From Deroplatys truncata (taxonomy: Eukaryota > Arthropoda > Insecta > Mantodea > Mantidae), in the NCBI GenBank assembly GCA_030765065.1, contig CM060975.1, positions 105,606,094 to 105,670,093 of the forward strand: DNA of 64,000 bases, read 5' to 3'. Positions 56,831 to 58,432 of the stretch are shown piece by piece (position 1 is the first letter of the stretch; each line of letters begins with the position of its first letter). The notes beneath the pieces were generated by a model. The model saw only the letters and a list, made by a program, of their open reading frames with translations. It was not told where the DNA came from and did no database searches. Made by a program: the position numbers and the translations under genes.

Positions 56831-57033
56831 TGCTTATAAGCCTCAAGTGCATGAAAAACTGTAAATATTGAGTGAATTTCAATGAGAAATCGCTCATTTC
56901 TATTTTCAAAATGCCTCCTCATAACTGCGCTTATTTGTACATAAGTGTAAGAAAAAACTGTGCATGTAGGAAAGAATTATAGAGCAGTTGTAGACTGTTA
57001 GAAACAATGATATTTCAGTTATGAACAAGAATG

Positions 57034-58418
57034 GAATTAATTGTTCTTCCACACAAACCGTGTGTTGGACAAGGTTGGAAAGGTAGAATCAGACGATTGA
57101 AAAATTCAATGCCATAGCTGGGATCTGAACCACGGATCTCCCGGTCCCTGTCCAGTTGCTTTAACCACTGAGCTACCATGGCAACATGCTGGCATGCCAT
57201 TAAATTCTCTGACTGATTCGCATTTTTCCCAGTAAACCACAAGGAGATCTCAAATTGTATTGAGATGACATACGCAATGGTGACTTACAATGTTGTAAGT
57301 ACTTGAAGTCCCGGGCTTCATAGCTTCAATCACTATTAGGTCAATTAATGGAATTAATTGTTCTTCCACACAAGTCGTGTGTTGGACAAGGTTGGAAAGA
57401 TAGAATCGGATGACTGAAAAATTCAATGCCATAGCTGGGATCTGAACCACAGATCTCCCGCTCCCTGTCCGGTTGCTTTAACCACTGAACTACCATGGCA
57501 ACATGCCGGAATGCCATTAAATTCTCTAACTAATTCACATTTTTCCCAGTAAACCACAAGGAGATCTCAAATTGTATTGCTCTAACCACTGAGCTACCAT
57601 GGCAACATGCCGGCACGCCATTAAATTCTCCAACTGATTTGAATTTTTCTCGCTAAACCACAAGGAGATCTCAAATTGTATTGAGATGACATACCCCAAT
57701 GGCAACTTACAATATTGTAAGTACTTTAAGTCCCGGGCTTCATAGTTTCAACCTCTATTAGGTCAATTAGTGGAATTAATTGTTCTTCCACACAAGTCGT
57801 GTGTTGAACAAGGTTGGAAAGGTAGAATCAGACGACTGAAAAATGCCATAGCTGGGATCTGAACCACGTATCTCCCGGTCCCTGTCTGGTTGCTTTAACC
57901 ACTGAGCTACCATGGCAACATGCTGGCATGCCATTAAATTCTCTAACTGATTCGCATTTTTTCCGGTAAACCACAAGATCTCAAATTGTATTGAGATGAC
58001 ATGCTCAGTGGTTAGAGCAATCGGACGGAGACCGGGAGATCTGTGATTCAAATCCCGGCTTGGCATTGAATTTTTCGGTCAACTGATTCTACCTTTCCAA
58101 CCGTGTCCAACACACGGCTTGTGTGGAAGAACAATTCATTCCATTAATTGACCTAATAGTGGTTGAAACTATGAAGCCCGGGACTTCAAGTACTTACAAT
58201 ATTGTAAGTTGCCATTGGGGTATGTCATCTCAATACAATTTGAGATCTCCTTGTGGTTTACCGAGAAAAATGCGAATCAGTTGGAGAATTTAATGGCATG
58301 CCAGCATGTTGCCATGGTAGCTCAGTGGTTAGAGCAACCGGACGGAGATCAGGAGATCCGCGGTTCAAATCCCAACTATGGCATTAAATTTTTCAGTTGT
58401 CTGATCTACCTTTCCAAC
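57034..58418. repeat. Composite, partly palindromic array of tRNA-derived SINE-D units
   Basis: Repeats of a ~318-bp unit: a tRNA-like head (TGGTAGCTCAGTGGTTA, A box; GGTTCAAATCC, B box) and a three-part body. The left arm (57034-58002) holds minus-strand units, one shortened at about 57578; the right arm (58003-58418) holds plus-strand units that start inside a head. The identical 14-mer TATGAACAAGAATG stands at 57020-57033 and 58419-58432, so the array looks inserted as one piece. Confidence 0.85.
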
Positions 58419-58432
58419 TATGAACAAGAATG

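Follow-up and report, generated by a model that had tools for sequence, protein, structure and literature searches.

A head-to-head, tRNA-bearing repeat array in Deroplatys truncata and its probable insertion by Penelope-like machinery

The DNA considered here is a 64,000-nucleotide stretch of contig CM060975.1 (assembly GCA_030765065.1, positions 105,606,094 to 105,670,093, forward strand) of the mantid Deroplatys truncata, hereafter the window; at 57020-58432 it carries an inverted array of 317-bp units with tRNA-like stretches, bounded by a 14-bp target-site duplication. The array is probably a single insertion of a tRNA-derived, non-autonomous retroelement that used the insertion machinery of Penelope-like elements (PLEs); it belongs to an abundant mobile repeat family and is not a one-off. 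The evidence that carries this reading is a pair of fixed outer ends, ~44 nt apart in the unit, which recur at other loci with one end on each side of the insertion.

Array layout and recurrent outer ends

Copies of the 317-bp unit fill positions 57034-58418, on the minus strand up to 58002 and on the plus strand from 58003; this is the arrangement given by the original prediction, which was made from the letters alone and correctly placed the inversion (58002..58003) inside a tRNA-like stretch, where unit positions 230 and 9 are joined (position 0 being the first base of that stretch). The left block (57034..58002, minus strand) consists of several head-to-tail units, and its outer end falls at position ~151 of the unit; the right block (58003..58418, plus strand) holds 1.3 units and ends at ~107. 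The units are spaced at 317 bp and are 88-94% identical to the first; the repeat of ~318 bp that had been proposed is real, with its period corrected to 317 in the window and 319 in some other copies of the family. Both outer ends lie 3' of the tRNA-like stretch, by ~35 and ~80 nt; the stretch is not terminal in the element, and the description of the unit as tRNA-headed has to be given up.

The array is enclosed by two perfect copies of the 14-mer TATGAACAAGAATG at 57020-57033 and 58419-58432 (both listed on the plus strand); no third copy occurs in the 64-kb window with one mismatch allowed, and an abutting word of at least 14 nt common to both sites was met 2 times in 200,000 random pairs of window sites. 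The left copy overlaps the unit by its last 4 nt (AATG), and not all of the 14-mer is therefore flanking sequence; with this correction, the perfect duplication predicted to bound the 1.4 kb holds up. The array landed as one rearranged block, as had been anticipated, and of the routes then offered, construction during a single target-primed event fits best; the view that it is not an ordinary short interspersed element (SINE) is likewise upheld.

A genome search with one unit against the 4.29 Gb assembly produced 6,897 first-look candidates, and the scoring of 40 of these yielded at least 87 matches; 39 loci other than that in the window were fetched and are numbered with an L. Head-to-head loci were defined by facing blocks no more than 200 nt apart (the short inverted piece of L043 was found by motif), and 23 of the 39 relatives have this plan. 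The inverted outer end lies at unit position 94-112 in 23 of 23 cases, namely the window and 22 relatives with this end in the fetched DNA; that of L019 falls outside it, and that of L043 was judged by eye. In 22 of these 23 the direct outer end falls at 150-158; only that of L009, at 173, departs from this. Duplications of at least 8 bp, mostly 8-15 bp, flank 18 of the 22 scorable head-to-head loci (that of L025 is a TTA run), compared with 76 of 1,332 pairs in a control of mismatched loci; those lacking one are L009, L013 (6 bp), L018 and L039. The inner junctions, by contrast with the outer ends, differ between loci: those of the 21 examined show either short inserts or an overlap of 12 nt at most. 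The inversion junction of the window occurs nowhere else in the genome, even with 3 mismatches allowed. The junction is unique and the outer ends recur, which indicates that the two-sided build is repeated at each insertion and that the ends define the family. A mobile composite with fixed junctions, as first suggested, is thereby contradicted; the junction search did return the single copy that was to mark a one-off event, and the event was not one-off, since the same plan is found in so many relatives.

An ordinary tRNA SINE moved by a long interspersed element (LINE), the array being a one-off produced via template switching and twin priming of an accidental multimer, is an unlikely source of this pattern. 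Twin priming yields head-to-head blocks and target duplications, and such an origin would also suit the tRNA-like sequence and the unique inversion junction of the window; internal starts in LINE twin priming are variable, however, whereas here the same two positions recur in nearly every head-to-head locus. Furthermore, no poly-A or simple-repeat tail was seen by eye at the element edges of 37 loci, except at L025, where a TTA repeat adjoins the element on either side; and 9 of the 39 loci contain a block of at least 600 nt, nearly two units. With ends that are fixed and downstream of the tRNA, and with no simple tail, the element does not look like a standard LINE-driven SINE, an assessment that did not include a search for a LINE sharing the end.

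Some smaller copies were also encountered. The sole other clear family copy found by BLAST scans of the window is a 43-bp fragment at 40105..40147 (minus strand), which stops at unit position 107, as the right block of the array does, and shows no target duplication by eye; a marginal 22-bp match to the unit lies at 62496-62517 (E 0.01). At L049, a head-to-head copy of just 119 bp occupies positions 2629-2747 (unit positions ~104-57 inverted, followed by 78-151) and by eye is flanked by a duplication, so that tiny copies without the whole tRNA exist. The flanks of L012, L022 and L024 look alike by eye, as if one older repeat had been struck near the same spot.

Repeated units and tRNA-like stretches

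The youngest relatives show how units within one insertion are related. L016 contains six whole units that are 100% identical, together with partial ones, inside a 15-bp duplication; L020 contains seven whole units that are 98.1-99.7% identical, with a 12-bp duplication read by eye; and at L019 one plus-strand unit shows no difference from either minus-strand unit across 319 bp, with at most 1.9% difference in the remaining pairs. The mean difference between units of the same locus and strand is 1.4% (77 pairs, to which L016 and L020 contribute 55), between those of the same locus on opposite strands 2.2% (14 pairs), and between loci 6.6% (3,743 pairs). The simplest reading suggested by these comparisons is that several copies of one RNA would be made per insertion, either round a circle or by a jump from the 5' end to the next start. 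The very young giant palindrome of L019 (1-1650) forms a hairpin that scores high, below the gathering score, for Rfam MIR7533. Folded as a circular RNA, a young unit of L016 has a z of -4.4 and is stabler than 100 of 100 shuffles (one sequence only), with a long helix around the tRNA-like region; linear RNA folds of the window units are unremarkable (z -1.2 and -1.4).

Within the window copy, one left-block unit is shortened, as had been noticed at about 57578, by a jump at ~57577 across a 4-nt CAAT overlap (deletion junction, 57576..57580), where a type-Y head is joined to a type-X body. Five linked head changes are present in all three left-block heads scorable at five sites; the full set is found in neither right-block head nor any head of other loci. 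A single one of the changes occurs in one right-block head, and the truncated fourth left-block head (57577-57603) has the usual base at the only site it covers. Rare body changes at positions 218 and 272 are common to the left-block unit 57604-57916 and the right-block body; the switch from X to Y coincides with the CAAT junction, and the return switch falls between positions 124 and 218. Copying of at least two RNA variants (X and Y) would explain the mosaic, as would later exchange between blocks, for which gene conversion may be the source.

These differences bear on whether a single SINE inserted first and the array was built by later tandem duplication and inversion at the locus, a sequence of events to which we give very little credence. 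The window units are 6.5-8.4% apart, with a mean of 7.9% among themselves and 9.0% to other loci, which leaves room for later events, and gene conversion between blocks could yield the X/Y mosaic; nevertheless, the perfect duplication brackets the whole block, the same plan is present in 23 relatives at other sites, and the very young L016, L019 and L020 are already tandem or inverted.

The tRNA-like stretches of the array were scored against Rfam RF00005. Those at 57110..57182 (31.1 bits) and 57427..57499 (32.2 bits), both on the minus strand, and at 58311..58383 on the plus strand (34.5 bits) are above the gathering score; the stretch at 57844..57916 (minus strand, 24.3 bits) is below it, as is a partial one at 58003..58058 on the plus strand. 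In young relatives the domain reaches 53.5 bits, and ARAGORN calls seven tRNAs in L016 and none in the window. The young-copy tRNA is labelled Ser(GGA) by ARAGORN; its true parent is unsure because the short variable arm is atypical of a Ser tRNA. A TTTTT run lies a few nt 3' of the tRNA, and such a run is expected to end RNA polymerase III transcription early.

Penelope-like elements and the proposed insertion route

The published properties of PLEs provide a mechanistic model. A purified PLE protein cuts and extends both DNA strands, and an AC-rich stem-loop of the RNA contains the two adjacent internal sites at which the enzyme starts, the intervening segment being the genomic 'tail' (PMC11167929); in rotifer Penelope an inverted pseudo-long terminal repeat accompanies the element, with a 31-bp tail on one of the repeats and duplications of 8-10 bp, some copies having no duplication (PMC3846280). 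In the mantid family the two fixed ends, ~44 nt apart and one per side, match by analogy the published pair of start sites; the adjacent ends at ~107 and ~151 are read from DNA, from which the starts would follow, and by eye an AC-rich segment (CCAACACACGG) lies between them. The family also shows inverted and direct or tandem copies within a short duplication, as expected of PLE insertions. The array itself has no open reading frame (ORF) for reverse transcriptase (RT) plus GIY-YIG, as an autonomous PLE would, and the window ORF list contains none of at least 120 aa that overlaps it.

PLEs are present in the same genome. A GIY-YIG search gave at least 149 matches from the 150 scored of 13,894 candidates, and domains were tested in five open frames of the PLE loci: L050 has an RT (19.5 bits, below the Pfam cut-off) followed by GIY-YIG in one frame, the RT of L065 is above the cut-off and that of L073 below it, and L077 and L069 have GIY-YIG; these domains identify the GIY-YIG loci of the genome as Penelope-like. 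Copies of the main PLE family end in two ways, a tail of ~44 nt (read by eye) being either present or absent, and one end of each kind is found in five of five head-to-head loci with both outer ends visible (L048/L053, which are one locus, L050, L057, L070 and L075). Several PLEs among L048-L077 carry near their 3' ends what we take to be hammerhead-like cores, judged by eye; these gave no Rfam score in seven loci and were not picked up by the motif script. The unit matches at L049, L051 and L060 were considered as PLE tails and set aside, as they look like separate short insertions of the tRNA-bearing family; the 119-bp match at L049 has a target duplication of its own, read by eye.

A DNA-level element without an RNA step, whether a foldback or miniature inverted-repeat transposable element (MITE)-like transposon or satellite DNA captured at a break, is highly improbable: large inverted repeats and palindromic copies such as L019 would be in its favour, but the ends are different unit positions (107 and 151) and not matching terminal inverted repeats, the inner junctions vary as described, single-block copies (L020, L044 and 40105-40147) end at the same positions, and the PLEs of the genome show the same end pattern.

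Insertion by Penelope-like machinery could proceed as follows. An enzyme would cut both target strands about 8-15 bp apart, and each free DNA end would prime reverse transcription at one of two sites ~44 nt apart in the element RNA; each cDNA would run towards the 5' side of the RNA, sometimes beyond one unit, and the cDNA ends would be joined with little or no overlap, which would leave the inversion at a random point. Repeated units would come from a circular template or from an enzyme that, on reaching the end of one RNA, jumps to a further start. The rule that the two start sites are used once each suggests a single complex in which priming of both DNA ends takes place. We further propose, tentatively and as something close to an even call that leans towards doubt, that the family represents a class of SINE dependent on PLEs and not on LINEs; in it a tRNA-derived RNA, circular or copied end to end as a monomer, would be copied from both sides of the break with one start site each, giving the strict 107/151 rule, and the making or recruiting of the RNA would fall to the tRNA-like domain in the role that the hammerhead has in retrozymes. 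SINEs are usually seen as passengers of LINEs; if the proposal is true, a tRNA-bearing family with the PLE signature would add another kind of SINE driver, and its copies would record the workings of a poorly understood PLE machinery. The young copies L016, L019 and L020 make the idea testable. No PLE-driven SINE was found in print, judged by titles and abstract openings among the matches listed from the open-licence literature, and publications on SINE arrays in that literature offered nothing closer.

Several observations weigh against the Penelope-like reading. Sixteen of the 39 relatives are not head-to-head; L020 and L044 among them end at 107 and the remaining 14 at 148-174, and a plausible duplication of at least 8 bp was found in just four of the 14 non-head-to-head loci scored (L012, L016, L037 and L038); an 11-bp match at L032 falls within the element and is not among them. 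The search query began at the 151 end and therefore selected loci with a full unit ending there and favoured long copies; this biases the head-to-head share and the lengths, and it does not create the rule that 151 at one end goes with 107 at the other. Some changes in L020 are common to neighbouring units, a pattern not expected if one template were simply copied, and at L009, L013, L029, L035 and the window the units of a locus are not clearly closer to each other than to those of other loci. Among the PLE loci, L061, L064, L065 and L072 extend beyond the DNA that was fetched, and at L060 the second block ends at another position; the flank words shared at the head-to-head PLE loci (12, 10, 8, 7 and 6 bp, the last beside a simple repeat) are suggestive only, since 3 of 20 control pairs also share words of at least 8 bp. 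Comparison of the unit with 30 PLE loci by blastn found none that has its tail; the matches were confined to the short insertions nested in them and to 14-nt stretches at the level of chance. Finally, the PAc assay is described as showing no start-site preference by strand, in contrast to the strict pairing in the mantid family (PMC11167929).

Neighbouring features and comparison with known systems

The window as a whole has a GC content of 35%. A minus-strand ORF of 198 aa at 60581-61177 matches Menin over its C-terminal part (Pfam PF05053, E 3e-27), and by this match the region is read as a host gene exon near the array. The plus-strand ORF at 1970-3379 (469 aa) has cysteine-rich stretches and by eye resembles the first ORF of a non-LTR retroelement, with a weak, sub-threshold Pfam match only. 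A second dispersed repeat family occurs in both orientations at 7391-8138, 18296-19040, 24703-25202, 27721-28622, 29565-30424, 35500-36223 and 61290-61613, its copies being ~67-90% identical. A PLE endonuclease peptide gave no match to the window, where no Penelope remnant was found, and the unit core has 0 exact matches in each of the viral and prokaryote-genome collections.

Twin-primed insertions of L1 resemble the array in having a head-to-head inversion within one target duplication; they differ in that their starts are not fixed to two positions and they have a poly-A end. With tRNA-derived SINEs, as commonly described, the element shares a tRNA-like domain, many copies and non-autonomy; unlike in theirs, the tRNA does not occupy the 5' end of its inserted copies and the inner starts vary, so that there is no 5' tRNA head, and it has a two-ended architecture, a TTTTT run following the tRNA and no LINE-type tail that could be seen. 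The Sm-alpha element of schistosomes, compared by description only, is similar in combining a tRNA-type promoter with retrozyme-like features, and differs in having a hammerhead.

A search of the unit for a type I hammerhead or other Rfam ribozyme was negative to E 10 in the array and to E 2 in seven relatives, and a scan of two young units and the array for the hammerhead core motif was also negative; the latter carries the weight because Rfam misses the hammerhead-like cores of PLEs. GIY-YIG PLEs resemble the tRNA-bearing element in their two ends ~30-44 nt apart, head-to-head and tandem copies, short target duplications and inner 5' truncation (PMC11167929; PMC3846280); unlike them, the element has no ORF and a unit of 317 bp.

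Metazoan non-LTR retrozymes are likewise low-GC units of ~300 bp without an ORF that occur as dimers to multimers, and their authors propose PLEs as the driver and circular RNA as the template (PMC7229834; PMC7761336). The tRNA-bearing element has the same organisation, with tandem units in the ~150-450-bp range, no ORF and low GC. Retrozymes are defined by a hammerhead ribozyme, in the place of which the unit has a tRNA-like domain; the element is by definition not a retrozyme, because no hammerhead core was found in the unit. Retrozymes are nevertheless its nearest known analogues.
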